This document shows positions 6,232 through 28,303 of a stretch of DNA of 64,000 nucleotides, one piece after another. The stretch comes from Microbulbifer hydrolyticus. GTDB taxonomy: Bacteria; Pseudomonadota; Gammaproteobacteria; Pseudomonadales; Cellvibrionaceae. The stretch spans positions 868,001-932,000 of the forward strand of contig NZ_CP047491.1 of the NCBI RefSeq assembly GCF_009931115.1. The letters are read 5' to 3'. The notes under the pieces were generated by a model. The model was given only the letters and a program-made list of their open reading frames with translations, had not been told where the DNA came from and searched no databases. Each line of letters starts with the position of its first letter. Positions within the stretch are counted from its first letter, which is position 1. A program made the translations under genes and the position numbers.

Positions 6232-6325
6232 TCGGGATCGGCGGATTCTTTTCGAAAAGCCTTACCCGGTGCATGTGCGCCAACGAACCGGTCTCAAAGC
6301 GGAACCCGGGGCTTGGACCAAAGCC

Positions 6326-12497: not shown

Positions 12498-13538
12498 CTA
12501 TTCGCCCTGGGTTTCCAGATTGTTGTCGGAAGCCGTCTTGCTGGAGGACTTTCCTCGCTTGTTTTTGCTTTTCTCGATGGGAATATCAAACAGTGCCGGG
12601 GTGCTGGCGAGGAACTCCTTCTGTGGCACCGGCTTGCGCCACAGGAAGTCCTTCGACTTCAGCTCCTTGGAAACCTCTGGTGCGCCGCTGAACTCATCCA
12701 TCTTGCCGATCTCCACCGCCGCGGCAAAACCCAGGAAGCACCACGGCAACAGGATCGAGGCCACAAGCCGCCAGTGCGGGGCGATATTGAGCGCCAGATA
12801 GGCTGCACACCACAGCATTACCGGGATCAATATGGCGAGGACGAGAATATTCAGCAGCGGCATCACCTGATGCAGTGAGAAGTTGAAATTGAGCAGGGTG
12901 CCGAACCACTGCCACGCCGCGTACAACAGTGCGGCGGAGGCGGCGATGGAAAGGTGCGCAAGGAAATGTGACTCGTGTTTCACTACCTTGCCGATAAACG
13001 CCCAGGCTGCCGCGTAGATCAGCAGGCCGAGTACCGCATCGGTCAGCACCTCGACCGCACCGGTCCACTTGAACTCACTGGTGCTGCCGAGGTAGGCCAT
13101 CCACAGGCTGAGTGCTGCCACCAGCACACACAGAGCAACGGCCACGGGTGTCGTTGCCAGACGGTCGAACACGGTCTCCGCCGAGTGCAGGGGAATGGCG
13201 GGCGGCACGCTCATCTCGGTGTCGATAAAGCGCAGCCGGCTCTTGCCAATCTGGATTTCATCGCCGCTCTCGATCAGGTGCTCGCGGATATTGGTGGGTT
13301 TTACCGACTTGTCGCGGAAATTGCGTATCAGGCGCATGCCGTTGAGGCTGTCCAGATCCCGCAGCACATAACAGCCGTCCTCATCGCGCACCACTTCCGC
13401 GTGTACCGGGTCGGCGTGGGGGTCTTCCACCATCACCGCATTGTCGTAGCAGCGGCCGATGGTGGTGCGCTCGCCGTCCATGCGGTAACGGGTACCCACC
13501 CGGTGGGCACGATTGATTTCTTCGATAATCAGTGCCAT
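12498..13538 (-). CDS. Membrane protein with N-terminal FHA domain
   Basis: A 346-residue protein. Residues about 20-110 form a forkhead-associated domain (TIGRCYDNAVMVEDPHADPVHAEV, then LRDLDSLNGMRLI and GDEIQIGKSRLRFID) that would bind phosphothreonine. About five hydrophobic segments follow (roughly 130-290), and a Lys/Ser-rich tail closes the protein. Its start overlaps the end of the trypsin-like protease gene by 10 bp, so the two are translationally coupled. The obvious partners for its FHA domain are the two Ser/Thr kinases encoded nearby. The function of the membrane part is unknown. Confidence 0.82.
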   Translation of the reverse strand: MALIIEEINRAHRVGTRYRMDGERTTIGRCYDNAVMVEDPHADPVHAEVVRDEDGCYVLRDLDSLNGMRLIRNFRDKSVKPTNIREHLIESGDEIQIGKSRLRFIDTEMSVPPAIPLHSAETVFDRLATTPVAVALCVLVAALSLWMAYLGSTSEFKWTGAVEVLTDAVLGLLIYAAAWAFIGKVVKHESHFLAHLSIAASAALLYAAWQWFGTLLNFNFSLHQVMPLLNILVLAILIPVMLWCAAYLALNIAPHWRLVASILLPWCFLGFAAAVEIGKMDEFSGAPEVSKELKSKDFLWRKPVPQKEFLASTPALFDIPIEKSKNKRGKSSSKTASDNNLETQGE

Positions 13539-14902
13539 TGAATTTCGCTCGCAAACTTCTTGGTAAAGGCGGTAGCGGACTCCTGGGTGAATCCCGAAAG
13601 AGTGAAATGGCTCACCAGGGCGCGGTTGTTCTGGTCCACCGTGAGGCTCACGTAGAACACGTCATAGAGGTCCGGGAATTCTTTATAGCGGCGCACACAA
13701 TAGGAAGTGCGCGCGATAACCGGCTTGCGGGAACCGCTGGACTGCACAGGCTTCTGGCTTTCCCCTGGCTGGTTGTCGCCGTTGCCCGCTTTGTTGCCGG
13801 CATCACCGTTGCGCGGATGACTGGTGAACTGCTGTTTGCAATTGAAGTCGGTCACATCGTCTTCCCCGGCGCTGTTGCCCGGGAAGAAGCCGCTCATATT
13901 CTCTTCATAGGCGGCGTAAAAGCGCGACGAGCGCAGGTCGTCGTCGGCCTGCAGCCAGAAGAACTCGTATTCCACCCGACCAGTATCAAAATCCTCCGAC
14001 AGGTACACCACATCCTGCCCGGTGCAGCCCTTGGCCACCTGCTTGATGGGTTCGTCTTCATCGTCGCTGGAATTCCCCCAGCACTGGATCGACGGGACTA
14101 TCTCTCCCACCACCTGCGCATCCCCCAGCGGCCGCAGCTGCCAGTCGGCGGCCAGCACCTCGTCGATGATGCGCTGCTGGTTCTGCTGCAGCTGGCGGTT
14201 GATCACCGGCTGTAGCTCCAGCGCGCCATTGCCGGCGGAGGCTTCTTTCTTGTAGTCCAGCAGCAGTGCCACCAGCTTGTTCACCGGCACCAGGAAACTG
14301 ATCTGGTTACCCGCGGTGGCCACATTGATGCCCACCACCTGGCCATTGCGGTTGATCACCGGGCCGCCGCTCATGCCCGGGTTGATGGAGCCGGAGAAAT
14401 GGATGCGGTCGTAAAAACTGCCGCCGGCGATACCGTTGTAGGTGCCGGGCACAATGGTCATGCCCAGATCCAGCGGATTGCCCATGGAGACGATGGTCTC
14501 GCCCTTGCTGGGAGACTTTGATGCCAGTCGCAGAAAGTCGCTCCCCGACTCGCCCTTCTGGCGCAGGATCGCGAGGTCGTTGATCACATCCACATCCAGC
14601 AGCTCCAGCTCGCCCTCCTTGCCGTCGACGGACAGGTACTTGAGCGCGTACTTCTCCGGGTGGTGCACCGCCTCGGACACCACATGGTAATTGGTGGCAA
14701 TCAGGCCGTCGGTGGAAATCTGGAAGCCGGAACCCAGCCCCGCCTTGGAATTGGACGACAGCTCGATCAGGCGGATCTGGTACAGGCTGCCGCGGTAATC
14801 GCTGTACAGCTGCTCGTAACTCTGCGCCAGCACCGGGCCGGCAGTGCACAACAGCAGCAGGGCCAACAGGGGTGAAAGCAGACGCTTGTAAAGGTTGGAC
14901 AT
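13529..14902 (-). CDS. Secreted trypsin-like serine protease
   Basis: A 457-residue protein with a signal peptide (residues 1-27, ending PVLAQ). The S1/HtrA-like catalytic triad is visible: His73 (ATNYHVV), Asp109 (VINDLAIL) and Ser178 (NPGMSGGPVINRNGQVVGI). No PDZ domain follows; instead there are about 250 residues with paired Cys and an Asn/Gly-rich linker near 365-385 that I do not recognise. It probably acts in the periplasm or at the surface. It is first in a transcript with the overlapping FHA gene and is divergent from the candidate RNA and DP-EP gene. Confidence 0.85.
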   Translation of the reverse strand: MSNLYKRLLSPLLALLLLCTAGPVLAQSYEQLYSDYRGSLYQIRLIELSSNSKAGLGSGFQISTDGLIATNYHVVSEAVHHPEKYALKYLSVDGKEGELELLDVDVINDLAILRQKGESGSDFLRLASKSPSKGETIVSMGNPLDLGMTIVPGTYNGIAGGSFYDRIHFSGSINPGMSGGPVINRNGQVVGINVATAGNQISFLVPVNKLVALLLDYKKEASAGNGALELQPVINRQLQQNQQRIIDEVLAADWQLRPLGDAQVVGEIVPSIQCWGNSSDDEDEPIKQVAKGCTGQDVVYLSEDFDTGRVEYEFFWLQADDDLRSSRFYAAYEENMSGFFPGNSAGEDDVTDFNCKQQFTSHPRNGDAGNKAGNGDNQPGESQKPVQSSGSRKPVIARTSYCVRRYKEFPDLYDVFYVSLTVDQNNRALVSHFTLSGFTQESATAFTKKFASEIQWH

Positions 14903-15212
14903 ATTTTGTGGTGCTTATCGGTAGCGAAAATTCACAGCCGCGCTCCCCGCCAGTAGTCGGCGTCCACAAAAGAGGAAAAAAGCGACGGCACAACAGGCTG
15001 ATTTCATTGTGGCCGAAATGTCGGCCGATAGTACGGGATCGGTCACAACCCAACAAGCGAGCCGGGCGCGCGCCGGCCGCGGATTAAAAACCGTTATCGA
15101 CAGTTGAGTGTAGTGAAGCTCGCGCGGGTCCGTGTAATTCACGGTCCCGCAAGCGGTGATGTGAGTGGTTGCTTCGGTAAGAGCGCTCGCCATATCTGAC
15201 ATTACCGATTGC

Positions 15213-15251
15213 TGTAATGGCGTGTAATGGCTTGTGATCGAACTGTAATGG
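15213..15251 (+). promoter_or_regulatory. Four helically phased TGTAATGG repeats
   Basis: TGTAATGG occurs at 15213, 15223 and 15244, with the variant TGTGATCG at 15233, giving steps of 10, 10 and 11 bp. A TAAAGT -10-like hexamer follows at 15261-15266, about 10 bp after the last repeat. This geometry resembles activators of the PhoB/OmpR type that replace the -35 box. The TGTAAT core is similar to, but not the same as, a Pho box (11-bp steps). The regulator is unknown. Confidence 0.4.
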
Positions 15252-15618
15252 GGTTCTGCGTAAAGTGCTCACCAAGGTTGAGGGGGACGCGATGCCCGGC
15301 CATCACAGGAGCCGCGGCAAGGTGGATTGCAGACACCCCGGCACCGGTGACCATCACGGAAGGTGGCACAAGGAAAGCGACGGAACTGCTTTCCGCACCG
15401 GATCCGGCACAGCGCCTCTCAGCCATATTTGCCAAAGGATTGGTAGTTACCTGTCACCGCATGAGCCTGGGGATGGGTAATAAATCAGGAAGACTTCGGC
15501 GCAAGCTGAACCGTCAGGCCGGCCCGGTAACCACAGAGCCTAGGAAGCCGGGATCGTGGAAGGGCCTGACAGAGGCAAGGATGCCTCATTTCGCTCTTGA
15601 TAGTGTTGTTGTAACCGT

Positions 15619-15640
15619 AGATGGCTGGGACCATCTTTTT
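15619..15640 (+). terminator. First of two tandem terminators
   Basis: AGATGG and CCATCT pair around CTGGGA, followed by TTTT. Confidence 0.5.
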
Positions 15641-15643
15641 AAT

Positions 15644-15678
15644 ACCGGCAGTAAGTTCGCTTACTGCCGGTTTTTTTT
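15644..15678 (+). terminator. Strong UUCG-capped intrinsic terminator
   Basis: CCGGCAGTAAG and CTTACTGCCGG form an 11-bp stem capped by TTCG, followed by eight T. The T run on the plus strand shows that it ends a plus-strand transcript arriving from the candidate RNA, 165 bp before the DP-EP start codon. Confidence 0.85.
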
Positions 15679-15844
15679 GGCAAAAATCTGCGGAAGTTTG
15701 TGTAGAAAAATGCCAAGCGGTTGCAGTAAGCTGTGTGACGCAGTTCTCGTTCTGAATCTGTGTTTGTTTTCAAAAATGTTTCAAGACCAACGATCACCCT
15801 GGGCGGTTTGCAGGGATAATAGTCATAAATTACAGGATAGAAAG

Positions 15845-16312
15845 ATGACCGAAGCAACCGAAGCCGTAGAAGCCTGCATTGAAGTGCCCGCGCAGGGTAA
15901 AGTTGAGATGAACTTCACCCTCGAGCCCACCGGTGCCGACCAGAAGTGGATTCTGAAGGATGACAATGGTGATGAGTGGGACACCATCTGCGTGAAGTTC
16001 GATGGAGTGAAGAACGGGGGCGTTGGCAAATCCGGGAAGGCCGAGCTGACGATCCAGATGGTCAACACCGATCTGGTATTCAAGAAGCTGTCGGGCAATA
16101 TCGACGGTATCAGTATCTATGATGTGATCAACGAAGGTAACGAAGGGATCTCCAACTGCAAGGTCGACAGCCAGAACGCGCAGGAGCTGAAGATGGTGCT
16201 GAAGGCCAACAAGCAGACCTCCAGTGGTTTTTCATTCAAGTGGGTAGGGCAGGATCAGAGCGGTGAGACGGTCTATTCGGCTGACCCTGATGCGCGGCTC
16301 GAACCGCTCTGA
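15845..16312 (+). CDS. DP-EP (DUF1888-like) family protein, putative self-cleaving beta-sandwich
   Basis: A 155-residue protein without signal peptide or membrane segment, rich in predicted beta strands. The C-terminus reads SADPDARLEPL, with an Asp147-Pro148 pair and an Glu-Pro pair at 153-154. The described DP-EP family member from Shewanella (SO1698) cleaves itself after an Asp near its C-terminus, releasing a 9-residue tail, and links that Asp to a Lys 18 residues upstream; here the tail after Asp147 is 8 residues and Lys132 lies 15 upstream. Family membership is my inference from this pattern. The frame is open upstream, but ATG 15845 follows the terminators and begins conserved-looking sequence. 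Its stop abuts the stop of the convergent kinase gene with no gap. Confidence 0.55.
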   Translation: MTEATEAVEACIEVPAQGKVEMNFTLEPTGADQKWILKDDNGDEWDTICVKFDGVKNGGVGKSGKAELTIQMVNTDLVFKKLSGNIDGISIYDVINEGNEGISNCKVDSQNAQELKMVLKANKQTSSGFSFKWVGQDQSGETVYSADPDARLEPL

Positions 16313-18904
16313 TCAGTCGCAGATAGCGTTTCTTACCTGCTCTGAAATCTGGGGCTGGGGGCAGAGCTGTTGGAAGGCCGGAAGGTTGAACCACTCTGCG
16401 CTCATGCCCTGCACTAATAACTGTTCAATATAGTAATTGGCTGAACTCCTTTCGCCTGCTAAGGCATAAATTTGTGCCGCGTTATATTTAATATCGGTAT
16501 CTTCCGGAGCTTTCTTTAAAAGCTCGAGTATTAAAGGTATAGCTTCACTCGAATGGTTCATGTTGGCTAGCGCAACGGCTCTATAACGCGCGGATTCTAG
16601 GTCTTCTTGTTCTTCAGTTAGATGTAGAATTTTATTGAATGTATGCTGCGCAGTACCATTGTTATCAAGCATCAAATAGGTTTCTGCAACCTGTCCTAGG
16701 GTGGGAACATCCTCTGGCACTTTTCTAAGAACTTTTTGGTAGGTGTTCAGGGATTCTTGATACTTCTGCTGTAAAAAGTAGACGACACCGAGATTGGAGC
16801 TCGTGCGCCAACCGCGCAATTGCTCTGGAATTGAAGTTATCGCTTTTTCCGCGGTTTCCAGATTGCCGCTTTCCAGTTCGATTACACCCAATGCGGAATA
16901 GGAAGACCAGTGCTCCGGAAAGGTTGTAATGGTCTTGTTCAGGGTGACGCGCCCATTGTCATAGTTACCGCTGGCTATCTGGTTCAGGGCAATAAGATAA
17001 AGGTTATCAGCAGATGGATTGAGTTCAGCAGCTTCTCTCGCATATTTTAGGCCTGACTCATAATCCCCATTTCGGTAGTGGTTTCGAGCGCGCTCACTCA
17101 GCAGTTCGGCGAGTGGGAAGTCCGTCGTTTCAAGTGTGGATATTAACTGCTGGTATTGCTCTGGGTAGTCACCCAGGCCATAGATGAATAGTTTGAGCCT
17201 GCTTGTTAATACTTTGGAAATCCCAAAGTTATCTGCCTTCTCAAGTGTCCGCAGGGCGGACTCCAAGTGTGTTGTATTGCCGCCAAGCACAAATAGTCGC
17301 GCGGCTACGTCAGATATGCTTTGGTAGAGATGCGCATTGCGTGGGTATCGATCGCTCAGTGATGTGAGGTCTCCGAGATCTTTTTCATCAAGAGCTTTGG
17401 CTTCCATTCGGTCGAGAATGTCGAGATAAACTCTGTAGTCGTCATCAGACATGCTTACCTGTTTAAGTAGCTCCCGCTGATAAGCTGGAGGGAACAACAG
17501 GGCAGCGCTATTGCTGGTGCGATACTGCGCCTCTTGTTTCTTGTCCGTCAGGAAAGTAAAACTCTCCTGTCGTTTAATCTGATTGTTCTCCGGTGCGATG
17601 CGCTGCAGTGAGATTTCGCAGCGTGCTCGGGCACAATCGAGCTGTGCGAAGAGAGCATCGGTTACCCCTTTATCCTTCAGTTTTTTAAGTTGCGTCTCAA
17701 AGTCCTGCCCCTCCTTCGGGGTAAAACTCACCAATGCACTCGCCTTCAACTGCGAAACTGAATTCATCAAAGCCTGCCGCACCATGGTCGCGGTCAGCGC
17801 CTTGGCATTTTCCTCGCCGCGAATCTCGCCGTTGATTTCCACCGGCATCACCGCAATATACTGCGGCTCCAGCCGGGTAATTTCCTTCCAGCCCCAGTAA
17901 CCACTCGCACTCAAAACCAGCACCGCGGCCACACCCGCCAGTGCCCGCTGCCAGCGGCGGCGGCTTTTGACTTTGTGGTGGGTAAACAGGTCGGTGAGCG
18001 TTGCGGTGAAGTCTTCGGTGTCGCTTTCCAGCCCCTGTTTGTACAGCAGTTCAAACCCCTGATACACGATCAGCGCACTCTGCGGGCGCTGGGTGGGGTC
18101 TTTGGCGAGGAGTTTGTCCAGCAGTACGGCCAGCGGTTCGGGGATACCCGGCCACGCCTGTTGCGGCGGGATATGGGGTTCGCTGGTGATGCGGCTGGCC
18201 ATGGCCAGGGCGCCGCCCTCGTGTTTTTCAAACGGGCGGCTGCCGCACAGCAGTTCAAACGCAATGGTGCCGAGGCTGAACAGGTCGCTGCGGGCATCCA
18301 GGGGTTTGCCCTGGATCTGTTCCGGCGACATGGCGGTGATGGTGCCGGCGAGCTGGTTCTCGGCGGTGAGGGTTTTCTCGTCCAGCTGCTGGGATTTGGC
18401 GATGCCGAAGTCGGTGATCTTGGCCACCGGCTCGCCCTTGCTGTTCTCGGCAATCAGGATGTTGTCGGATTTCAGGTCGCGGTGAATGATGCCGAGGTTG
18501 TGGGCTTCCGTGAGTCCCTTGCAGATCTGCATCAGCAGGCTGAGTTTCTGCTGCAGGCTGGGGCGGCGCTCGCGCATCCAGGCGCGCAGGGTGGTGCCCT
18601 CGATATATTCCATCACCAGCGCAATGCTGTCGCCTTCTTCAAGCACATCGTAGAGGGCGACGATATTGGGGTGGTTGAGCTGGGCGAGCAGGCGCGCTTC
18701 CTGCTGGATGCGGTCGCGGGCGTTCTGGCTGGCGGCGTCGTCCTTGAGCTTTTTGATCGCCACCTGACGGTGCAGCTTGCGGTCTTCGGCCAGGTACACA
18801 ATGCCCATGCCGCCGGCGCCCAGTGTGCTCTGGGTGCGGTAGCGGTCACTGGCTACGGGATCGGGTGTGGCCTTGAGGCCGGCCTCGGGATCGGCAATAT
18901 CCAT
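16313..18904 (-). CDS. Membrane Ser/Thr protein kinase with TPR ectodomain (kinase 1)
   Basis: An 863-residue protein. A complete Hanks-type kinase domain spans about residues 22-280: glycine loop LGAGGMGIVYLA, Lys51 (VAIKK), catalytic Asp143 (HRDLKSDN) and DFG Asp165. A single membrane segment lies near 316-336. The exterior part begins with a TolB/FlgO-like stretch (YIAVMPVEINGE) and continues with many TPR motifs (about 560-850). It should sense a periplasmic state and phosphorylate cytoplasmic targets, with the two FHA proteins as likely readers. The 3' half (about 16313-17600) uses more A/T-rich codons than the kinase half. It is 87 bp downstream of kinase 2. Confidence 0.9.
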   Translation of the reverse strand: MDIADPEAGLKATPDPVASDRYRTQSTLGAGGMGIVYLAEDRKLHRQVAIKKLKDDAASQNARDRIQQEARLLAQLNHPNIVALYDVLEEGDSIALVMEYIEGTTLRAWMRERRPSLQQKLSLLMQICKGLTEAHNLGIIHRDLKSDNILIAENSKGEPVAKITDFGIAKSQQLDEKTLTAENQLAGTITAMSPEQIQGKPLDARSDLFSLGTIAFELLCGSRPFEKHEGGALAMASRITSEPHIPPQQAWPGIPEPLAVLLDKLLAKDPTQRPQSALIVYQGFELLYKQGLESDTEDFTATLTDLFTHHKVKSRRRWQRALAGVAAVLVLSASGYWGWKEITRLEPQYIAVMPVEINGEIRGEENAKALTATMVRQALMNSVSQLKASALVSFTPKEGQDFETQLKKLKDKGVTDALFAQLDCARARCEISLQRIAPENNQIKRQESFTFLTDKKQEAQYRTSNSAALLFPPAYQRELLKQVSMSDDDYRVYLDILDRMEAKALDEKDLGDLTSLSDRYPRNAHLYQSISDVAARLFVLGGNTTHLESALRTLEKADNFGISKVLTSRLKLFIYGLGDYPEQYQQLISTLETTDFPLAELLSERARNHYRNGDYESGLKYAREAAELNPSADNLYLIALNQIASGNYDNGRVTLNKTITTFPEHWSSYSALGVIELESGNLETAEKAITSIPEQLRGWRTSSNLGVVYFLQQKYQESLNTYQKVLRKVPEDVPTLGQVAETYLMLDNNGTAQHTFNKILHLTEEQEDLESARYRAVALANMNHSSEAIPLILELLKKAPEDTDIKYNAAQIYALAGERSSANYYIEQLLVQGMSAEWFNLPAFQQLCPQPQISEQVRNAICD

Positions 18905-18991
18905 CTGCGTGTGTTCTTTTTTAGAGCCTGAAAAGACCGCCCTGGCCGTTACCCCTGGCCCGGGCGTGCGGTGAGGTTCGCGGAATTGCTG

Positions 18992-21661
18992 TTACAGCTT
19001 CGCGCTGGTCTCGCCGCTGCGGGCGATCTGGGAATCGCCCGCGCTGTTTTGTTGTTCATTGTTGTGTTCGGCGCCGCCACAGAGACCCGGGTATTGCTGC
19101 CGGAGATCGTTGAAGGCGGGCATGTTGCAGATTTTGACAAACCGCGCGGTGCAATACCAGACGGGGGAGATCCCCTGTTCCAGGGTTTTGCGGATATGCG
19201 CCTTGGCGGAGAGCAGGTCGCCGGTGGTGATATACACCTGCGCGCGGGCGTAATTGGTGTAGAGGTCGTCCGGGGCGTCGCGGCGGATCTTGAGCAGGTT
19301 TTCCACCGCCTTCTCGCCTTCACCCAGTTCGGCGTAGGCGCGGGCCTGCATCAGCAGGCCTTCCCAGTCGCTGCGGCCCTGGGTGAGTTGCAGTGCCTGC
19401 TGGGCAAAATCCCGGGCGCGTTTTGTTTGTTGCTGCTCGCGGGCGATCTCGGCGCGGTACAGCAGCGGGTCGGCGTCTTTGGGGGCCAGCTCGGAGACCC
19501 GTTTAAAGCAGGTCTGCGACTGCGCGTACTGCTTCTCGATGTAGTAGGCCAGGCACAGGTTGTAGGTGTCCATGGGGCCGATGCGGTCGAGGCCGGCCTC
19601 GGTGAGCAGGCGGATGGTCTCCTGGGCGCGGCCGGCGTCGAGCATATTGCCCGCGAGCAGGGAGATGGCGTCGATGGATTCGCTGTTGAGGGCGATGGCC
19701 TCCCTGAGTACTTCGTTGGCCGCGGGCATATCCCCATCGAGGGTGAGGATCAGGGCTTTCTGGTCGAGGTAGATGTAGCTGGTACGCAGGGCGAGGGCGC
19801 TGTTGATACTTTCCAGGGCGCGGCTGTAGTCCCCGCGCTGCTGGTGGTACATGGCACTCAGCTGGTGGTAGCTGGCCTTGTCCGGCAGGACCAGCTTCAG
19901 CTTTGCCAGCAGCGCCTCGGGGCGGCCGGGGTTGTCGCGCAGCATGGACAAGCGCAATTCGCTGATCAGCAGCTCCGGGGTGTCATCGAGCCGGGCCGGG
20001 GCCTTTTGCAGCAGGCGGGCGAGGCGCTCGTGGGCTTCCGCGGCGCGGGTGTTGAACTCCTGGTCGATGGCCATCTCGGCGTACAGCTCGTACAGCGGCG
20101 CAAAGCTGGGTGCGCGTTTCTGCAGGCTGTCCAGTTGATCGAGGAGATCGCCTAAATGGAGATAGTCGTGGCGGCGCTCGTAGATTTCCAGGTAGGTGAG
20201 GTAATCCTCGGCGCCGATCAGGTTGGCCTGGTTGGCCGCTTTTGCCGGGTAGTCGGACAGCAGGCTGTCAAGCTGGTGCAGGGTGCGGGCACGGCTCTCC
20301 AGGCCCTCTTCCATGGAGAGGCGGGTGCTCTGGCTGCCGATGACGGCGAGGGTGTCGCTGTCCAGCAGCTCCAGCGACAGTTCACAGCTGCGGCCCTGGC
20401 AGTCCACATCCGGGATCAGCAGCAGGTCCGCATTGAGGGAGTTCGCCTGGTTGGCGAGGGGCTGGCCGGTGAGCTTGCGGGACTCGGAATAGGAAATCAG
20501 GTGCAGCCCGCGGCGGCCTGACAGCCCTTGCTTGAGCGCATTCTGCACATTGCCGATCAGCAGGCGCTGGTTGTGGGAAAGGCTTTCCTGCCCGCGTACA
20601 GCCGGCTCCAGCACCGCAATATAGTGGCCTTTCTGGGATTCTGCGGGCGGCGAGTACAGGGAAATGCCGAGTACCACGGCGATGCTGGCGGCGCAGGTCG
20701 CCAGTGCACCGGCGGTTATTTTGGCGGCGCGGGCAAATTTGCGGCGCGGCTTGTGGGGGCGATGGAAGTAGCTTTCCGACGTCACCGTGGCGGTGAGGCT
20801 GTGGGTGCGGGTAAAGCTGGTGCCGCTGCCGCGAATCTGCTGCAGCAGGGATTCCAGCTCCGCGGCCACTTCGGCGGCATTCAGCGGGCGCTGCTCGGGC
20901 TGTTTTGCCAGCAACCGGTCCAGCAGCTCGCAAACCGCGAGGGGTAATTCCGGGGCCAGTTTCGAAGCCGGCGGGTGCGGACTTTTGACGATGCGATCGA
21001 CAATCACATAGGGGCTGTTGTTGTCGCCGAACGGGTTCTGCCCGCACAGCAGGCGGTAGGCGACCACGCCGAGAGCGAACAGGTCGCTGCGGTTGTCCAG
21101 TGGTTTGCCCTGGGCCTGTTCCGGTGACATGGCGCCCCAGCTGCCGGCCACATGCTGCTCGCGGGTGAGGCCGCTGTCTTCCCGCCAGTTTTTGGCAATG
21201 CCGAAGTCGGTAATCTTGATGGTGCCATCGCTGTCCACCAGGATATTTTCCGCTTTCAGGTCCCGGTGGATGATGCCCGCACCGTGGGCGCGGGACAGGC
21301 CGGCGCAGATCTGTTTGATCAGCTGCAGCTTTTGCGGCAGGTCCAGAGTGCGCTCGCGCTGCCAGCGGTCGAGGCTGCAGCCGTCCACATATTCCATCAC
21401 CAGCGCGATACCGCTTGCGTCCTCCACCACGTCGTAGAGCTGCACGATATTGCTGTGGTTGAGTTGCGCGAGCAGCAGGGCCTCGCGGCGAATACGCTCG
21501 CCGGCGTTGCTGCTGTTGGGATTGCGTAGCAGTTTTTTGATCGCCACTTTGCGGTTCAGGCGTTCATCGGTTGCCAGGTACACCACACCCATTCCGCCGG
21601 AGCCGAGCCTGGCAGTGGCGTGGTAGCGGCCGATGTAGAAAGGTAACTGCTCTGATTGCAT
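18992..21661 (-). CDS. Membrane Ser/Thr protein kinase with TPR ectodomain (kinase 2)
   Basis: An 889-residue paralogue of kinase 1 with the same plan: kinase domain (about residues 12-275; LGSGGMGVVYLA, Lys42, HRDLKAEN with Asp134, DFG Asp152), a juxtamembrane linker, a membrane segment near 312-336, a TolB/FlgO-like region (HYIAVLEPAVRG) and TPR repeats (about 540-850). The activation segment reads AGSWGAMSPEQ, where kinase 1 has AGTITAMSPEQ. All catalytic residues are intact. It follows the FHA/winged-helix gene by 119 bp and precedes kinase 1, so FHA2, kinase 2 and kinase 1 look like one transcript. Codon use is uniformly GC-rich, unlike the 3' part of kinase 1. Confidence 0.9.
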   Translation of the reverse strand: MQSEQLPFYIGRYHATARLGSGGMGVVYLATDERLNRKVAIKKLLRNPNSSNAGERIRREALLLAQLNHSNIVQLYDVVEDASGIALVMEYVDGCSLDRWQRERTLDLPQKLQLIKQICAGLSRAHGAGIIHRDLKAENILVDSDGTIKITDFGIAKNWREDSGLTREQHVAGSWGAMSPEQAQGKPLDNRSDLFALGVVAYRLLCGQNPFGDNNSPYVIVDRIVKSPHPPASKLAPELPLAVCELLDRLLAKQPEQRPLNAAEVAAELESLLQQIRGSGTSFTRTHSLTATVTSESYFHRPHKPRRKFARAAKITAGALATCAASIAVVLGISLYSPPAESQKGHYIAVLEPAVRGQESLSHNQRLLIGNVQNALKQGLSGRRGLHLISYSESRKLTGQPLANQANSLNADLLLIPDVDCQGRSCELSLELLDSDTLAVIGSQSTRLSMEEGLESRARTLHQLDSLLSDYPAKAANQANLIGAEDYLTYLEIYERRHDYLHLGDLLDQLDSLQKRAPSFAPLYELYAEMAIDQEFNTRAAEAHERLARLLQKAPARLDDTPELLISELRLSMLRDNPGRPEALLAKLKLVLPDKASYHQLSAMYHQQRGDYSRALESINSALALRTSYIYLDQKALILTLDGDMPAANEVLREAIALNSESIDAISLLAGNMLDAGRAQETIRLLTEAGLDRIGPMDTYNLCLAYYIEKQYAQSQTCFKRVSELAPKDADPLLYRAEIAREQQQTKRARDFAQQALQLTQGRSDWEGLLMQARAYAELGEGEKAVENLLKIRRDAPDDLYTNYARAQVYITTGDLLSAKAHIRKTLEQGISPVWYCTARFVKICNMPAFNDLRQQYPGLCGGAEHNNEQQNSAGDSQIARSGETSAKL

Positions 21662-21780
21662 GGTATTGACTGCGGTAATAAATCTACGGGTAAACCGCCG
21701 TCCGTGGATAGTGAAGCCCGCTGTGAGCGGGCGTAAAGTTACATCGCGTATTCCGTGCGACTACCTTGCTCGCGAGCCGC

Positions 21781-22779
21781 TCACGCTGGCTCCGGGGCTA
21801 CGGCGAATTCGCCGGTGCTGGCCTCCAGCTCCTCTTTCTGGGACCCCTTGAAGATGTCCAGCTGATAGCAGCCCAGGCGCATTTCATAGGCTCGGCGTTC
21901 GACCAGCCGCGACGTGTCGATGGCGTCCGGCAGGCTGTCGGCAATCTGTTTCCGGGCGCGAAAAATCTGCGTATTCAGGTGGTTTACCGTGATCCCGAGC
22001 TCGCGGGTGGCCAGGTCGATGGCGACCCAGCCCTGATCGGGTGCATCCACGTTGCGTTGAATGTCGCGAATGCGCGCCCGTGCAAGATACAGCAGCAGGT
22101 AGTTGTGGGTGCGTGCCGCAAGGTCCAGGCGCATATCGTCTTTCGCCAGCTGCAGCTGAATGTGCTCTTCGTGGTGGCTGACGGTAAATCGCAGACGGAA
22201 ATCCGATACGCACAGGTTTTTGAACGAGAGCTCGGTAGTGGTGCTCTGGCTGGCGGCCAGGAACAGTTCCCAGCTGTGGTGGGCGCAGTCTACGCGGCCA
22301 CCGTGATTGACGACCTTGGCACTCTCGCCGTGCTCGGGGCTTTCGAGCAGCTCGTAGATCCATACACCGTTGATCGGGTTGAAGTGCAGGCTGGCAATCG
22401 GTTCGTGTTCGTCCGGCAGCAGGTGGTAGGACTCCAGCGGCTGGCTGTCGCCGGTGTCGATGTCGATCAGCAGATTTTCCGGCGGGTCGAGGTTTTCGAC
22501 TCGCCACACGGGGTTATTGGCGCGGCCAAAGGCCAGCTTGTCGCCCAGGTGCAGCTGCTGGTTTTTGGCAGGAATCAGTTGCTGGTCATTGACCCAGGTG
22601 CCGTTGCGGCTGAGGTCGCGAATGATCCAGTGACTGCCAGTCCATTGGATGGCGGCGTGTATGCCGGATATTTCCGGCAGGGTGATGCGTGTATCGGCAA
22701 CCCCCTGGCGGCGGCCAATAGTGTGGTGCGCCATCAGGTAGACGGGCTGATCCCGATCAGGATGTTGCAAGCTGGCCAT
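21781..22779 (-). CDS. FHA-domain protein with C-terminal winged-helix-like DNA-binding region
   Basis: A 332-residue cytoplasmic protein. The N-terminal FHA domain (about residues 15-90) has TIGRRQGVADTRITLPEISGIHAAI and LSRNGTWVNDQQL. The C-terminal third (YLARARIRD..., GWVAIDLATRELGITVNHLNTQI, then ARKQIAD...LVERR) resembles the OmpR/trans_reg_C winged helix. The combination recalls mycobacterial EmbR, an FHA regulator phosphorylated by a Ser/Thr kinase, though the domain order is reversed. The ATG at 22779 with a GGGAAGGGA ribosome site is preferred over an upstream TTG. It heads the operon with the two kinases and may be their output. Confidence 0.78.
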   Translation of the reverse strand: MASLQHPDRDQPVYLMAHHTIGRRQGVADTRITLPEISGIHAAIQWTGSHWIIRDLSRNGTWVNDQQLIPAKNQQLHLGDKLAFGRANNPVWRVENLDPPENLLIDIDTGDSQPLESYHLLPDEHEPIASLHFNPINGVWIYELLESPEHGESAKVVNHGGRVDCAHHSWELFLAASQSTTTELSFKNLCVSDFRLRFTVSHHEEHIQLQLAKDDMRLDLAARTHNYLLLYLARARIRDIQRNVDAPDQGWVAIDLATRELGITVNHLNTQIFRARKQIADSLPDAIDTSRLVERRAYEMRLGCYQLDIFKGSQKEELEASTGEFAVAPEPA

Positions 22780-24078: not shown

Positions 24079-24242
24079 GAGGTTTGGCCTTGCACCCTCA
24101 ACAATGTTTAGAGTACTATGGATTTAAATATTTAGAGCAGTAAATAATTTTTTAGGGAAAAGGTCAAATTTCAGGCGAAATTAAGCGGGGTAAGCACTCC
24201 GCCGTTTTTGTTACGGAAGTTTGATACAGATCTAACAATTTG
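24079..24242. promoter_or_regulatory. ectR-ectA divergent promoter region
   Basis: A_T-rich compared with its surroundings. TTTAGAG occurs at 24107-24113 and 24131-24137 and TTTAGGG at 24151-24157, direct repeats 24 and 20 bp apart. Part of the region (GGATTTAAATATTTAGAG) is a likely promoter core. EctR binding and osmotic control of ectABC would be expected here; the exact start sites are not resolved. Confidence 0.45.
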
Positions 24243-24851
24243 ATGACTAAAGGTATTGGTTTGAGCGCCACTAGCGAATTGAAAGAAGACGACTCGACTG
24301 ACGACAAGGTGAAGCTGGCGCAGCAGGAGGAGACTCGTAACAAGAGTGCCCAGGTTCTGTTGCGCCGCCCGGTCAGCGAAGATGGTGCCGATGTGCACCA
24401 GCTGATCGCGGATTGCCCACCTCTGGATACCAACTCCCTCTACTGCAACCTGCTGCAGGCCTGCCACTTCTCCGGCACCAGTGTCGCCGCGGAGCTGGAT
24501 GGCAAGCTGGTGGGTTTCATCTCCGGTTACATCGTTCCCGAGCGCCCCGACACACTGTTTATCTGGCAGGTGGCGGTAGCGGAACAGGGCCGCGGCATGG
24601 GCCTTGCCGGCCGTATGCTGCGCGAGATCCTCGCCCGTCCGGCATGTGCTGACGTGCGCTTCCTGGAAACCACCATCACCCCGGACAACGACGCATCCTG
24701 GGCGCTGTTCCGCAGCCTCGCGCGCAAGCTCGAGGCGGACTGTGCCGACTCGGTGATGTTTGATCGCGAGCGCCATTTCAGGGGCCAGCACGACAGCGAA
24801 ATGCTGCTGCGCATCGGTCCATTTGACGCCTCGCGGAAGGTCGCCGGCTGA
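24243..24851 (+). CDS. ectA: L-2,4-diaminobutyrate N-gamma-acetyltransferase
   Basis: A GNAT-family acetyltransferase of about 202 residues; it acetylates diaminobutyrate, the second step of ectoine synthesis. EctA blocks are clear: RRPVSEDGADVHQLI, DTNSLYCNLLQACHF, the acetyl-CoA loop EQGRGMGLAGRML and ETTITPDNDASW. The start is uncertain: ATG 24243 lacks a good ribosome site, while an in-frame TTG at 24261 follows AAAGG at a proper distance. The extra N-terminal 35 residues are polar and not typical of EctA. Confidence 0.95.
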   Translation: MTKGIGLSATSELKEDDSTDDKVKLAQQEETRNKSAQVLLRRPVSEDGADVHQLIADCPPLDTNSLYCNLLQACHFSGTSVAAELDGKLVGFISGYIVPERPDTLFIWQVAVAEQGRGMGLAGRMLREILARPACADVRFLETTITPDNDASWALFRSLARKLEADCADSVMFDRERHFRGQHDSEMLLRIGPFDASRKVAG

Positions 24852-24932
24852 GCGGTTAATGCCGCTCTGTGAACTGTTTTTTGTTTTTCCAATTCACCTC
24901 TTTAAATCAACGACTCAAAAAGGGTTGTCACA

Positions 24933-26261
24933 ATGAAAGTATTTGACGAAATCGAATCTGAAGTAATGAGTTACGCCCGCGCTTTCCCGCGGGTTTTTAA
25001 CAAGGCGCAGGGCGAATACCTGTACGACGAAGAAGGCAACCAGTACCTGGACTTCCTCGCCGGTGCCGGCACCCTGAACTACGGCCACAACAACCCCATC
25101 TTCAAAAAAGCGCTGCTGGAGTACATCGAGCAGGATGGCATTACCCACGGTCTGGACCTGCATACCAAGGCCAAGCGCGAGTTCCTGGAGTCTTTCTACG
25201 AGAACATCCTGAAGCCGCGCGACATGACCTACGTCATGCAGTTCACCGGCCCCACCGGTACCAACGCGGTGGAAGCGGCACTGAAGGTTGCACGTAAATA
25301 CAAGGGCCGTGAGAACGTGATTTCTTTCACCAACGGCTTCCACGGCTGTAGCCTGGGTGCGCTGGCCGCTACCGGTAACTCACACCACCGCGGTGCTTCC
25401 GGTGTGAGCATGAGCAGCGTTGCGCGTATGCCTTACGACGGTTACCTGGGTGACGAGTTCGACACCACGGCATACCTGGACAAGGTGCTGAGCGATTCCT
25501 CAAGCGGTATCGACCATCCGGCGGCGGTACTGGTGGAAACCGTACAGGGTGAAGGCGGTATCAATGCTGCCAGCGTTGAGTGGCTGCGCAACCTGCAGGA
25601 CGTGTGTCACAAGCACGATGTACTGCTGATTGTCGATGACATTCAGGCGGGCTGTGGCCGTACCGGTAGCTACTTCAGCTTTGAGGAAGCGGGTATCAAG
25701 CCGGACATCGTTACCCTGTCCAAATCCCTGAGTGGCTACGGCCTGCCGTTTGCGGTTGTCCTGATGAAGCCGGAGCTGGACCAGTGGAAGCCGGGTGAGC
25801 ACAACGGTACTTTCCGCGGTAACAACCTGGCCTTCGTCACTGCCAAGGCAGCCATCGACCACTACTGGAGCGATGACAAGTTTGCCAAGGAAGTGCTGCG
25901 CAAAGGTGAGTACATCGAGAAGCGCCTGCAAACCATCGTCGACAAATACGGCGACGGCAATATGACCACCCGCGGTCGCGGTATGTTCCGTGGCCTGAAC
26001 TGCGTAAGCGGCGAGCTGGCCGACAAGATCACCACTGAAGCGTTCCGCAACGGCCTGGTTATCGAGACCAGTGGTGCGGATGACCACGTTGTGAAAACCC
26101 TGTGCCCGCTGACCATCAGCGATGAAAACCTCACCAAGGCGCTGGATATTGTGGAAGCCGCTGTAGCCAAAGTGCTGAAAGGCGAAGATGTGCCGGAAGA
26201 AAAAGACTTCTTCGCGGACGATGTTGAGCAGGAAAACCGCACCCTCGCGGGCGCAGCCTGA
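24933..26261 (+). CDS. ectB: Diaminobutyrate--2-oxoglutarate aminotransferase
   Basis: A 442-residue class III PLP aminotransferase that converts aspartate-semialdehyde to diaminobutyrate, the first committed ectoine step. Visible motifs: MQFTGPTGTNAVEAALK, FTNGFHGCSLGALAATGN, IVDDIQAGCGRTG and the PLP lysine in TLSKSLSGYGLP. The C-terminus has an extra acidic tail (KDFFADDVEQEN). It follows ectA by 81 bp, an interval holding a small AGCGG/CCGCT hairpin. Confidence 0.97.
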   Translation: MKVFDEIESEVMSYARAFPRVFNKAQGEYLYDEEGNQYLDFLAGAGTLNYGHNNPIFKKALLEYIEQDGITHGLDLHTKAKREFLESFYENILKPRDMTYVMQFTGPTGTNAVEAALKVARKYKGRENVISFTNGFHGCSLGALAATGNSHHRGASGVSMSSVARMPYDGYLGDEFDTTAYLDKVLSDSSSGIDHPAAVLVETVQGEGGINAASVEWLRNLQDVCHKHDVLLIVDDIQAGCGRTGSYFSFEEAGIKPDIVTLSKSLSGYGLPFAVVLMKPELDQWKPGEHNGTFRGNNLAFVTAKAAIDHYWSDDKFAKEVLRKGEYIEKRLQTIVDKYGDGNMTTRGRGMFRGLNCVSGELADKITTEAFRNGLVIETSGADDHVVKTLCPLTISDENLTKALDIVEAAVAKVLKGEDVPEEKDFFADDVEQENRTLAGAA

Positions 26262-26281
26262 TCGACCAGGTATTGAACGAC

Positions 26282-26308
26282 ATGCGGCCGCATTGACGGC
26301 CGCATTTT
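26282..26308 (+). terminator. Intra-operon terminator-like hairpin between ectB and ectC
   Basis: ATGCGGCCG and CGGCCGCAT pair around CATTGA and are followed by TTTT, 20 bp after the ectB stop and 45 bp before ectC. It may cause partial termination or protect the 3' end of ectAB mRNA. Confidence 0.55.
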
Positions 26309-26352
26309 TCCAAGACCAGAAATTCAAACACTGATTTTAAATAGAGTTAGTA

Positions 26353-26757
26353 ATGATCGTAAGAAAACTGCAAGAAGCCGAACAAACCAATCGTCGTATT
26401 GTTTCCGAGGGCTGGGAGAGCACTCGCCTGTTGCTGAAGAACGACAACATGGGCTTCTCTTTCCATATCACCACCATCTATGAAGGCGCTGACCTGCACC
26501 TGCATTACCAGAATCACCTGGAGTCTGTTTACTGCATCTCCGGTGAAGGCTCCGTAATGGCGGAAGAGGACGGTGTGGTACATGAGATCACTCCGGGCAC
26601 CATCTATATTCTGGACAAGAACGACAAGCACGTACTCAAGGCCAAATCTGAAATGAAGATGGCCTGTGTTTTCAACCCTCCTTTGCACGGTAAAGAAGTG
26701 CATAACGCGGAAGGCGCCTACGAGCTGGAAGCGGAAGAGGTAAAGGACGAAAAATAA
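26353..26757 (+). CDS. ectC: L-ectoine synthase
   Basis: A 134-residue cupin that cyclises N-gamma-acetyldiaminobutyrate to ectoine. It has the family start [33 protein letters not shown] and the cupin metal region [16 protein letters not shown] with later KNDKHVLKA. Length matches the family (about 130). No ectD hydroxylase gene is present nearby, so the product here is ectoine rather than hydroxyectoine, as far as this window shows. Confidence 0.97.
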
Positions 26758-26857
26758 GCCGGTTGTGACAAACATAGCAGCGGAGTTCTGGGGCACTACC
26801 CGCAAATATTTTGGTGCTCCACCCGAACCTACTGAAATCGGTAAACGAAAGGATCCC

Positions 26858-28303
26858 ATGAAGACACATACGGTTGAAAAAATTGGCGGCACGTCCATGA
26901 GTGACTACCGCGCAGTACGTGACAACATCATTCTGAAAAACGGCAAAGCGAAAGCGGAAGGGTTGTACCAGCGTGTTTTCGTGGTATCTGCCTATGGCGG
27001 TATTACCGACATGCTGCTGGAGCATAAAAAATCCGGACGCCCGGGGGTGTTTGCCCTGTTTGCCGGTGCCGATGACGAGCGTGAATGGTCGGATGCGGTA
27101 GCCGGGCTGCGTGCGCGCATGGAAGAAATCAACGCAACCCTGTTCCACGACGATGTGACGCTGGCCAAGGCCAATGGCTTTATCGGCGAGCGACTGGACG
27201 ACGCGGCCAATTGTCTTGGAGACCTCGAGCGGGTGTGCCAGCACGGTCACTTCGCCCTGGAGGGCCACCTGGATGTGGTCAGCGAAATGCTCGCCAGCCT
27301 GGGTGAGGCGCACAGCGCATGGAACACGGTGCAGCTGCTCAAGCAGGAAGGAATCAATGCGCGCTTTATCGACCTGACCGGTTGGCGCGATGGCGAGCAT
27401 ATGACCCTGGACGAGCGTATCGAGCGTGCCTTCGCCGATGTCGACTTTGACAGCGAGTTGCCGATTGCAACGGGCTATGCCCACACCGCTGACGGCCTGA
27501 TGAAGACCTTCGCACGTGGTTACAGTGAAATGACCTTCAGCCGCATCGCCGTGAAAACCGGTGCCAGCGAAGCGATCATTCACAAGGAGTACCACCTGAG
27601 CAGTGCCGATCCGCGCCTGGTAGGCGAAGAGCAGGCGGTGCCGATCGGTCGTACCAATTACGACGTTGCGGACCAGCTGGCGAATCTCGGTATGGAGGCA
27701 ATCCACCCCCGCGCAGCCAAAGGTCTGCGCCAGCAGGAGATCCCGCTGCGGGTGATGAACACCTTTGAGCCCGAGCACCGCGGCACACTGGTCACTGGCG
27801 ACTATGTAAGCGACACACCGCAGGTGGAAATCATCGCGGGGCGTAAAAACATCTATGCTGTTGAATGTTTCGATCAGGATATGATGGGCAGCATGACCAG
27901 TTACGACCGGGCGATCAACGAAATCATTGCGCGCTTCAAGGGCAGTGTGGTGACCAAGGATACCAACGCCAACACCATTACCCACTACCTGGGCAACAAC
28001 CTGAAGACCGTCAAGCGGATCAAGAAAGCCATTGGCGAGTTGTTCCCGGATTGCGACATCCAGGTGCGCAAAGTGGCGGTGGTTTCCGCTATTGGCAGTG
28101 ACATGAAAATCTCCGGGATGCTGTCCCGGGCGGTGAGTGCGCTGGCCAATTCCACCATCAGCATTCTCGCGGTGCACCAGTCGATGCGCCAGGTAGACAT
28201 GCAGTTTGTGATCGACGAAAGCGATTACGAAAGTGCGGTCAAAAGCCTGCACGCCGCACTGGTCGAAGTGCACGAACACGGCGACGCAATATGCGCAGCC
28301 TGA
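26858..28303 (+). CDS. ask: Ectoine-specific aspartate kinase (Ask_Ect)
   Basis: A 481-residue aspartokinase. It opens with KIGGTSMSDY rather than the usual KFGGTS, typical of the ectoine-linked branch, and keeps the aspartate/ATP regions (FSRIAVKTGASEAIIHKEYHLSS) and two C-terminal ACT domains (VVSAIGSDMKISGML; ILAVHQSMRQVDMQFVIDE). It phosphorylates aspartate to feed aspartate-semialdehyde to EctB and is thought to escape normal feedback. The frame is open from 26765, but ATG 26858 follows an AAAGGA site. It overlaps the next gene by 13 bp. Confidence 0.95.
   Translation: MKTHTVEKIGGTSMSDYRAVRDNIILKNGKAKAEGLYQRVFVVSAYGGITDMLLEHKKSGRPGVFALFAGADDEREWSDAVAGLRARMEEINATLFHDDVTLAKANGFIGERLDDAANCLGDLERVCQHGHFALEGHLDVVSEMLASLGEAHSAWNTVQLLKQEGINARFIDLTGWRDGEHMTLDERIERAFADVDFDSELPIATGYAHTADGLMKTFARGYSEMTFSRIAVKTGASEAIIHKEYHLSSADPRLVGEEQAVPIGRTNYDVADQLANLGMEAIHPRAAKGLRQQEIPLRVMNTFEPEHRGTLVTGDYVSDTPQVEIIAGRKNIYAVECFDQDMMGSMTSYDRAINEIIARFKGSVVTKDTNANTITHYLGNNLKTVKRIKKAIGELFPDCDIQVRKVAVVSAIGSDMKISGMLSRAVSALANSTISILAVHQSMRQVDMQFVIDESDYESAVKSLHAALVEVHEHGDAICAA

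Follow-up and report, generated by a model that had tools for sequence, protein, structure and literature searches.

A group of genes in the genome of the marine bacterium Microbulbifer hydrolyticus (GCF_009931115.1; a single 4.2-Mb contig, NZ_CP047491.1) probably encodes a polymorphic ligand-receptor signaling system, in which the C-terminal tail of a small protein, DP-EP, would be the ligand of the tetratricopeptide repeat (TPR) ectodomain of a membrane Ser/Thr kinase, K1, in a pherotype-like arrangement. We put the probability of this reading at about 0.65. The genes in question, referred to here as unit A, are located within a 64,000-nt stretch (positions 868,001 to 932,000 of the forward strand), hereafter the window, to which all coordinates refer. 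From sequence comparisons, we document an apparent exchange of the ectodomain between species, covariation with the ectodomain that is specific to the tail and to particular sites, the predicted fold of DP-EP, and the conserved pairing of its gene with that of the kinase. The features of unit A are as follows.

21781..22779, minus strand: FHA2, an FHA domain followed by a C-terminal domain whose predicted topology resembles a winged helix; candidate for the output of unit A (ATG at 22779; Pfam FHA, E = 5e-15)
18992..21661, minus strand: kinase 2 (K2), a Ser/Thr kinase with a membrane segment and a TPR ectodomain (Pkinase and TPR matches)
16313..18904, minus strand: kinase 1 (K1), a Ser/Thr kinase with a weaker membrane segment (around residue 321) and a TPR ectodomain; candidate receptor (Pkinase and TPR matches)
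16316..17869, minus strand: K1 ectodomain, residues 346 to 863, apparently swapped among species
17075..17344, minus strand: K1 residues 521 to 610, putative sub-site matching the final tail residue
16805..16954, minus strand: K1 residues 651 to 700, putative sub-site associated with tail position 3
15845..16312, plus strand: DP-EP protein with predicted SO1698-like fold, convergent with K1, the two stop codons lying 1 nt apart
16277..16288, plus strand: S-A-D-P motif, DP-EP residues 145 to 148 (invariant in the alignments)
16286..16309, plus strand: tail PDARLEPL, DP-EP residues 148 to 155; candidate ligand (covariation with K1)

All the genes that a first-pass annotation had named between positions 12498 and 22779 are intact; they stand in the order FHA2, K2, and K1 (minus strand), DP-EP with an upstream RNA (plus strand), and a protease and FHA1 (minus strand). 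That annotation had described two intact membrane Ser/Thr kinases with TPR ectodomains, and so they appear to be: both K1 and K2 give Pkinase (PF00069) matches with E values of ~1e-55, placing them among the Hanks-type kinases, as well as TPR matches, and K2 has a clear membrane segment (hydropathy of 2.09 at residue 315). The closest named loci are those of Microbulbifer.

The DP-EP tail covaries with the TPR domain of K1

The main set comprised 44 of the 48 genomes of the genus; G001, G006, G007, and G016 were left out, as their loci are on split contigs, and G001, G016 (through loci L124 and L131), and G070 served as hold-outs. The tail that follows the Asp of the DP-EP motif is 8 residues long in 31 of the 44 genomes (PDARLEPL in the window, PKARIEPE in G018) and longer in the other 13; it begins with a proline and usually has another one next to last. 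Tail distances were calculated over the 7 residues after this first Pro and expressed as partial correlations given FHA2 divergence, with 1,000 permutations. Measured in this way, the tail correlates with the K1 TPR domain across all 44 genomes (r = 0.517, P = 0.001) and within DP-EP body types I and II (r = 0.70 for the 13 genomes of type I and 0.56 for the 27 genomes of type II, P = 0.001 each), whereas its correlation with the K1 kinase domain is 0.09. For the 7 residues before the Pro, the correlation with the K1 TPR domain is 0.14 overall, 0.39 in type I, and -0.15 in type II; the drop at the Asp-Pro bond is sharp overall and in type II and less so in type I.

K2, a paralogue of the same build, shows no such covariation with the tail: in the 35 genomes that have this kinase, the coefficients are 0.585 for the K1 TPR domain, -0.05 for the K2 TPR domain, and -0.07 for the K2 ectoN region. 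The body of DP-EP was considered as the part matching K1 and discarded, the link being weak: the whole protein correlates with the K1 TPR domain at r = 0.198 given FHA2. Given FHA2 and the tail, the body yields 0.134 (P = 0.039), and the protease compared with the tail, given FHA2 and the body, yields -0.04; these last two figures were computed with the G037 tail misread, and all other tail figures use the correct one.

In a nearest-neighbor comparison, genomes that are closest in the K1 TPR domain share, on average, 3.48 of the 7 tail residues, as against a mean of 2.20 and a maximum of 2.86 in shuffled data, and the respective values for neighbors chosen by FHA2, by the kinase domain, and by the DP-EP body are 2.23, 2.48, and 2.84. 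When tails were permuted only within FHA2 clades, the result for the K1 TPR domain had a P value of 0.0002.

Exchange of the K1 ectodomain between species

In the 17 sister pairs of genomes with FHA2 proteins at least 94% identical, K1 residues 346 to 863 are only 20 to 74% identical and in all 17 are less similar than the kinase domain (75 to 99%). Thus, G008 and G041 show 99% identity in FHA2, 99% in the protease, and 94% in the K1 kinase domain but 34% in the K1 TPR domain; the same four figures are 98, 96, 98, and 47% for G018 and G026 and 96, 100, 95, and 20% for G029 and G032. In 8 pairs chosen for blastn comparison, the edges of the exchanged block are sharp: the K1 codons at which it starts range from ~270 to 534, and its other edge is close either to the 3' terminus of K1 or to the beginning of DP-EP. 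The converse case is provided by G012 and G022, which share a K1 TPR domain at 98 to 99% identity although their FHA2 proteins are only 89% identical. Divergent ectodomains in sister pairs, combined with this shared TPR domain, indicate that alleles of the ectodomain are passed from one species to another. K2 is encoded by both genomes in 11 of the 17 pairs, with an ectodomain identity of 92 to 99% in eight pairs, 81% in G039/G046, 64% in G013/G042, and 58% in G021/G025; K2 also seems to have been exchanged in the last two.

Hypervariability and interspecies allele exchange resemble what is seen in biological conflicts, and the ectodomain could be diversifying because rivals or phage products attack or deceive it, with DP-EP acting as a decoy, an inhibitor, or an immunity partner and not as a signal. 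PADLOC kinase models do match the kinase domains, though such matches are generic. On the other hand, no toxin or secretion gene was recognized among the scanned window genes, and neither DP-EP nor FHA2 is matched by PADLOC, so that an arms race appears to be an improbable cause of the diversity. Assignment of the locus to a defense system was rejected as well, the PADLOC matches being general ones to kinase and trypsin-like domains.

Site-level matches and the question of linkage

With the tail codons adjoining the end of K1, co-transfer readily suggests itself as another explanation of the covariation: any block that replaces the ectodomain would carry the adjoining tail codons with it, and no recognition need be involved. 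The 1-nt distance between the stop codons in the window and the ends of the exchanged blocks, in or near DP-EP, fit this explanation, as does the correlation with the tail that K1 residues 774 to 863 still show (0.415). However, the sliding profile along K1 is higher farther away from the tail, reaching 0.557 at residues 631 to 720, a difference of 0.14 with a bootstrap interval of 0.058 to 0.222.

The last tail residue allowed a finer comparison, made in 23 genomes (10 with Leu and 13 with Glu or Gln); 8 genomes with other endings and the 13 with longer tails were left out, and single-column tests were confined to gap-free columns with no more than five residue types (391 and 353 columns). 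K1 positions 525, 532, 550, 573, 577, and 605 each separate the Leu-ending from the Glu/Gln-ending tails in 23 of 23 genomes, and not one of 1,000 shuffles, whether free or within clades, yielded even a single perfectly separating column. The mean z score for the last residue is 3.5 to 4.5 at K1 residues 521 to 610, 0.33 in the kinase domain, and between -0.05 and 0.55 at residues 701 to 863. FHA2 identity is nearly the same within the last-residue classes (0.756) as between them (0.748). Mapped on trees, the class of the last residue changes once on the tree of K1 residues 521 to 610, twice for residues 346 to 520, five times for 651 to 700, six times for 701 to 863 and also for the kinase domain, and seven times each for FHA2 and the DP-EP body; shuffled labels require ~7.7 changes on the four trees that were so tested.

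K1 residues 521 to 640 group by tail class even without the top columns, and each tail class may therefore trace to one allele lineage. This stretch and the tail apparently remain associated even as the intervening DNA is reassorted. Since the strongest matches (K1 525 to 605) lie ~800 to 1,000 nt from the tail codons and the part of K1 nearest to the tail (701 to 863) is almost uninformative about the last residue, linkage alone would explain the last-residue match poorly, and we regard it as an unlikely source of the covariation.

At tail position 3, the choice between Ala and a larger residue pairs with that between Val and Ala, Gly, or Ser at K1 674, with at most 2 misfits in 31; this is the size pattern that packing would want. 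The same tail position is also associated with K1 682 and 652. The column scan of the main set gave no clear K1 site for tail positions 2, 4, and 5. The class of longer tails was tried as a signal and discarded, as it also marks kinase-domain columns, which is a lineage effect. Among the hold-outs, the tail of G001 ends in Glu, and the tails of its six nearest neighbors by K1 TPR domain all end in Glu or Gln; the rule for K1 674 fits all three hold-outs, of which G016, with a terminal Lys, is informative for position 3 only.

The DP-EP protein and its relatives

The first-pass annotation had listed a small DP-EP-like protein, an assignment that is supported both by its homologues and by its predicted structure. 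The window protein itself gives no match to PF08985, the Pfam family of DP-EP, but the syntenic proteins of G055, G050, and G048 match it above the cut-off; no match was found for those of G052, G064, and L184, and that of L181 falls below the cut-off. The AlphaFold2 model (33 sequences; predicted local distance difference test [pLDDT] score of 92) retrieved three chains of Shewanella SO1698, all of them mutants of what is entered as an aspartic peptidase of S. oneidensis, as the only Foldseek hits with E values of 0.001 or less, at modest TM-scores of 0.45 to 0.58. Near the C terminus, the Ser, Asp, and Pro of the S-x-D-P motif are invariant in all DP-EP alignments that we made. SO1698 reportedly cuts its own Asp116-Pro117 bond, which lies within this motif.

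DP-EP genes are also found beside a second type of putative receptor. A thin draw of the class had a PF08985 protein in just one of 369 genomes, and for this reason the search was repeated at the order level, where 24 of the 247 genomes from the order of G460 encode one. In all 21 of these genomes whose gene surroundings were read, DP-EP lies behind a large gene of 1,051 to 1,141 codons on the same strand, directly so in 20, while locus L237 has a second DP-EP match in between. A hydrophobic segment near residue 590 is seen in 20 of the 21 large proteins, and the nine that were scanned combine a winged helix (Trans_reg_C) with nSTAND1 and TPR matches, several of the latter only below the cut-off. 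The DP-EP tails at these loci are mostly alike, P-[QE]-[VI]-x-N. DP-EP proteins thus appear to adjoin two unrelated membrane receptors that have a TPR-like end.

In L237 (positions 5812 to 6733; genome G493), the large receptor-like gene is followed by both DP-EP matches in a row, and the one examined starts with what, judged by eye, is an evident Sec-type signal peptide.

Proposed signaling mechanism

In the proposed system, K1 would be the receptor, with a cytoplasmic Ser/Thr kinase domain, a single membrane segment, and a periplasmic TPR groove, and the candidate ligand would be the ~8-residue C-terminal tail of DP-EP, encoded head-on to K1. The tail would be released by a cut at the Asp-Pro bond, by analogy with the reported cleavage of SO1698, and would then arrive, whether exported, freed by lysis, or by another route, in the periplasm of either the producing cell or a sister cell; this is the weakest step of the scheme. 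There, it would likely bind in the TPR groove, its final residue being read by K1 525 to 605 and its position 3 by residues ~652 to 682; from the order of these two sub-sites, tail and repeats would run antiparallel. Binding would switch the kinase, and FHA2 might plausibly read a phosphorylated partner and act on DNA, giving a transcriptional output. Recombination would repeatedly swap both ectodomain and tail from one species to another, giving rise to specificity groups comparable to the pherotypes known from peptide quorum sensing in Gram-positive bacteria.

Several observations weigh against this scheme. In DP-EP type I, the next two 7-residue windows upstream of the Asp-Pro bond also correlate with the K1 TPR domain (0.39 and 0.46); the 2.84 tail residues shared by neighbors in the DP-EP body exceed the shuffled mean of 2.20; and G021 and G025 have similar tails with K1 TPR domains that are only 51% identical. 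Independent pairs on supported FHA2 branches agree in 5 of 5 cases, a number for which the sign test cannot go below P = 0.0625. Tail position 3 changes four times on each of the trees of K1 residues 651 to 700, 701 to 863, and 346 to 520, and because all three trees are alike in this respect, they do not single out the position-3 sub-site. The hold-outs are mixed at K1 550, 573, 577, and 605, where G001 fits at three of the four positions and the distant G070, whose tail ends in Gln, fits at one. As for the membrane segment of K1, its hydropathy is only 1.43 at residue 321; this segment is the most hydrophobic stretch in 39 of the 44 K1 sequences, and a value of 1.6 is reached in only 14 of the 44. 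In the alignment, Asp37 and Lys98 of SO1698 are not conserved in the Microbulbifer DP-EP proteins, so that self-cleavage may be lost there; both residues vary among the Shewanella-type members too. Further, a profile search of Protein Data Bank (PDB) sequences with the presumed DNA-binding domain of FHA2 returned no match.

Finally, the TPR domain is predicted to be periplasmic, and no signal peptide was found on the window DP-EP or on its homologues in view except that of L237. DP-EP could accordingly be an intracellular self-processing protein or a kinase substrate, with a tail that varies for other reasons and an ectodomain that senses something else. The tail, however, covaries with the ectodomain and not with the kinase domain, and one homologue does carry a Sec signal peptide; we consider a purely intracellular role very improbable.

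The ligand-receptor reading can be extended, though we hold the extension only tentatively. Unit A might represent a Gram-negative pherotype system in which a β-sandwich protein, DP-EP, cuts itself at the Asp-Pro bond and frees a peptide of ~8 residues that is read by the kinase TPR groove of sister cells, with many specificity groups in Microbulbifer; DP-EP might then be a general class of ligands for TPR receptors, that of Shewanella-type bacteria being a membrane STAND transcription factor.

Units A and B

Outside unit A, the annotated stretch encodes two more proteins, which we assign to a separate unit B.

13529..14902, minus strand: secreted trypsin-like protease (Trypsin_2, E = 1e-25)
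12498..13538, minus strand: FHA1, a membrane FHA protein lacking the Ser that is usual in FHA domains (N-terminal FHA, E = 4e-9)

The protease gene overlaps that of FHA1 by 10 nt, as first described, and the two predicted FHA proteins are likewise confirmed, with FHA1 being the membrane one (several hydrophobic segments by sequence reading). The genome contains five FHA-domain matches, two of them at this locus, a grouping that exceeds chance.

The first-pass annotation had proposed a single pathway shared by the kinases, the protease, and both FHA proteins and had named co-occurrence in other genomes as a check. The neighborhood is indeed fixed within the genus: all 44 contiguous loci retain it, FHA1 and FHA2 being 8.1 to 36 kb apart on one contig in 44 of the 48 genomes and on separate contigs in 4 fragmented assemblies. 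Seventeen genomes outside the genus have an FHA1 match at E < 1e-10; the protease and FHA1 are adjacent (matches no more than 750 nt apart) in all of them, and unit A adjoins unit B in G070 alone; 15 or 16 of the 17 have no adjoining unit A, the doubtful case being G067, in which FHA2 is 4 kb off. Moreover, Asp replaces the usual Ser of the FHA domain in 44 of 45 FHA1 sequences. As this Ser is the phosphothreonine-binding residue, phosphothreonine readout by FHA1 is doubtful. The catalytic triad residues His73, Asp109, and Ser178 of the protease are kept in 50 of 50 aligned homologues. Because unit B recurs mostly without unit A outside the genus and FHA1 lacks the FHA Ser, we treat the locus as two units that share an address in Microbulbifer, and not as one. 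Hence, the part of the earlier proposal that describes a conserved kinase-FHA unit with TPR ectodomains stands, unit A recurring elsewhere; the inclusion of the protease is not supported, units A and B being largely not found together beyond Microbulbifer, and one common pathway is unlikely.

FHA2 is present in all 48 genomes of the Microbulbifer set and in other genera, where it is often followed by one to three TPR kinases. At 80 named FHA2 loci, a kinase gene lies within 700 nt in 56 and farther away in 13, with none in 11, some of which are on short contigs. K1 matches are found in all 48 genomes of the genus, and K2, its conserved partner, gave no match in 10 of the 48. A small convergent open reading frame (ORF), mostly of 150 to 200 codons, is located at the 3' end of the last kinase gene in 46 of the 46 genomes of the genus that could be evaluated (the contigs of G006 and G007 stop too early, and six spurious ORFs were removed from the DP-EP list); it is within ~110 nt of the K1 end in 45 genomes and 650 nt away in G044. 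A convergent DP-EP gene also occurs in G070 and at 11 named loci of other genera or metagenome-assembled genomes, including those of Gilvimarinus, Pseudoteredinibacter, Exilibacterium, Aestuariibacter, and Shewanella salipaludis. No recognizable DP-EP was seen at the FHA2-kinase loci L156, L164, L175, and L187 and at four others with longer kinases.

FHA2, in contrast to FHA1, has the usual FHA motif residues, with Ser, His, and Asn-Gly found in 53 of 53 sequences and Gly-Arg in 52 of 53. Its AlphaFold2 model (pLDDT of 88.6) has a winged-helix-like order of helices and strands in the C-terminal domain; hhalign gave a probability of 3% for its alignment with Trans_reg_C, and the listed Foldseek hits cover the FHA part. 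The winged helix is, accordingly, a guess from the predicted topology.

Signs of decay were seen in unit A of several genomes: FHA2 is split by a stop codon in G042 (L089, 16613 to 17605), a kinase remnant is present in G005 (L067, 10644 to 11027), and K1 is fragmented in G040 (L066, 6252 to 9953).

Comparison with known signaling systems

Membrane Ser/Thr kinases beside FHA proteins are familiar from PknH-EmbR and similar pairs, and a kinase and an FHA protein also work in the PpkA-Fha-PppA pathway of type VI secretion. Unit A resembles the former in combining a membrane Ser/Thr kinase with FHA2 and its possible DNA-binding domain, though in a different domain order, and the latter in pairing a kinase with an FHA protein. 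The type VI secretion FHA model TIGR03354 (TagH) scores 30.8 bits here, below its cut-off of 120.25 bits; type VI secretion was not searched genome-wide. We know of no PknH-EmbR-type pair that has a hypervariable ectodomain with a cognate tail and, to our knowledge, the bacterial receptor Ser/Thr kinases that carry TPR ectodomains have no described ligand.

Two other systems come closer in principle. In the ComQXPA system of Bacillus, the signaling genes are highly polymorphic among strains with near-identical core genes, which results in communication groups (PMC4408185). Unit A shares with it the polymorphic signaling genes and the putative specificity groups. However, ComQXPA is a Gram-positive system with a histidine kinase and a modified peptide, whereas unit A has a Ser/Thr kinase, a TPR ectodomain, and the DP-EP tail; no match to the ComP histidine kinase or the ComQ isoprenyltransferase was found among the scanned window genes. 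In the RRNPPA family (Rap, PlcR, NprR, AimR, and others), a concave TPR groove reads a short peptide, and in its Bacillales members the gene for the peptide immediately follows that for the receptor (PMC9765709). The TPR domain of K1 would likewise be a peptide reader, as suggested by the covariation. The RRNPPA receptors, however, are cytoplasmic proteins of Firmicutes, with propeptides that are exported by Sec, and have no kinase domain; in K1, which has both a Pkinase domain and a membrane segment, the TPR domain is an ectodomain. Unit A would work in a similar way to ComQXPA and RRNPPA but belongs to neither.

SO1698 of Shewanella oneidensis (DP-EP, PF08985, DUF1888) is reported as a self-cleaving endopeptidase (PMC11655445). 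It shares with the Microbulbifer DP-EP the predicted fold and the S-x-D-P motif and differs from it in Asp37 and Lys98. The literature searched contained nothing that ties SO1698 to a receptor or gives it a biological role, and neither a ligand for such a kinase nor a role for DP-EP is described in it, including PMC11655445, PMC9765709, PMC4408185, and PMC1262709. Nor did this literature, which was mainly open access, mention a receptor Ser/Thr kinase paired with a hypervariable protein tail that matches it; this is no proof of absence. The parts of unit A (Hanks kinase, FHA, TPR, and the DP-EP fold) are of known kinds, and a polymorphic ligand and receptor are known as a principle; for this kind of kinase, such a ligand-receptor pair would be new. 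If the proposal is correct, Gram-negative bacteria gain a polymorphic system for peptide recognition, and a protein family so far known for cutting itself acquires a function.

A structured RNA and other features of the locus

The candidate RNA of the first-pass annotation is well supported.

15213..15682, plus strand: structured RNA that precedes DP-EP and carries a terminator hairpin

It was found in all 25 Microbulbifer genomes searched and in none of 13 others. The core of the RNA, GCTCTTGATAGTGTTGTTGTAA, is highly conserved; in the 3' part of the RNA, 17 of 41 base pairs show two-sided changes, and none of 500 shuffles was as good. It has no Rfam match at the gathering threshold, and the sole sub-threshold match was rejected as implausible. 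In G023 (L095 and L096) and G034 (L098 and L099), the stretch between DP-EP and the protease extends over ~20 to 30 kb and contains five RNA copies in each genome along with many ORFs that carry no label, and the RNA may be linked to a hot spot for insertions at this place.

In some Microbulbifer genomes, DP-EP and the protease are separated by a pyridoxal phosphate (PLP)-dependent enzyme of Cys/Met metabolism (L068, 9543 to 11324, and L091, 9577 to 11502; 593 and 641 amino acids, respectively, in the two that were scanned), which has no counterpart in the window. Ectoine-type genes are located upstream of FHA2, at window positions 24240 to 28303, and ectA/ectB matches hold this position in many Microbulbifer loci.

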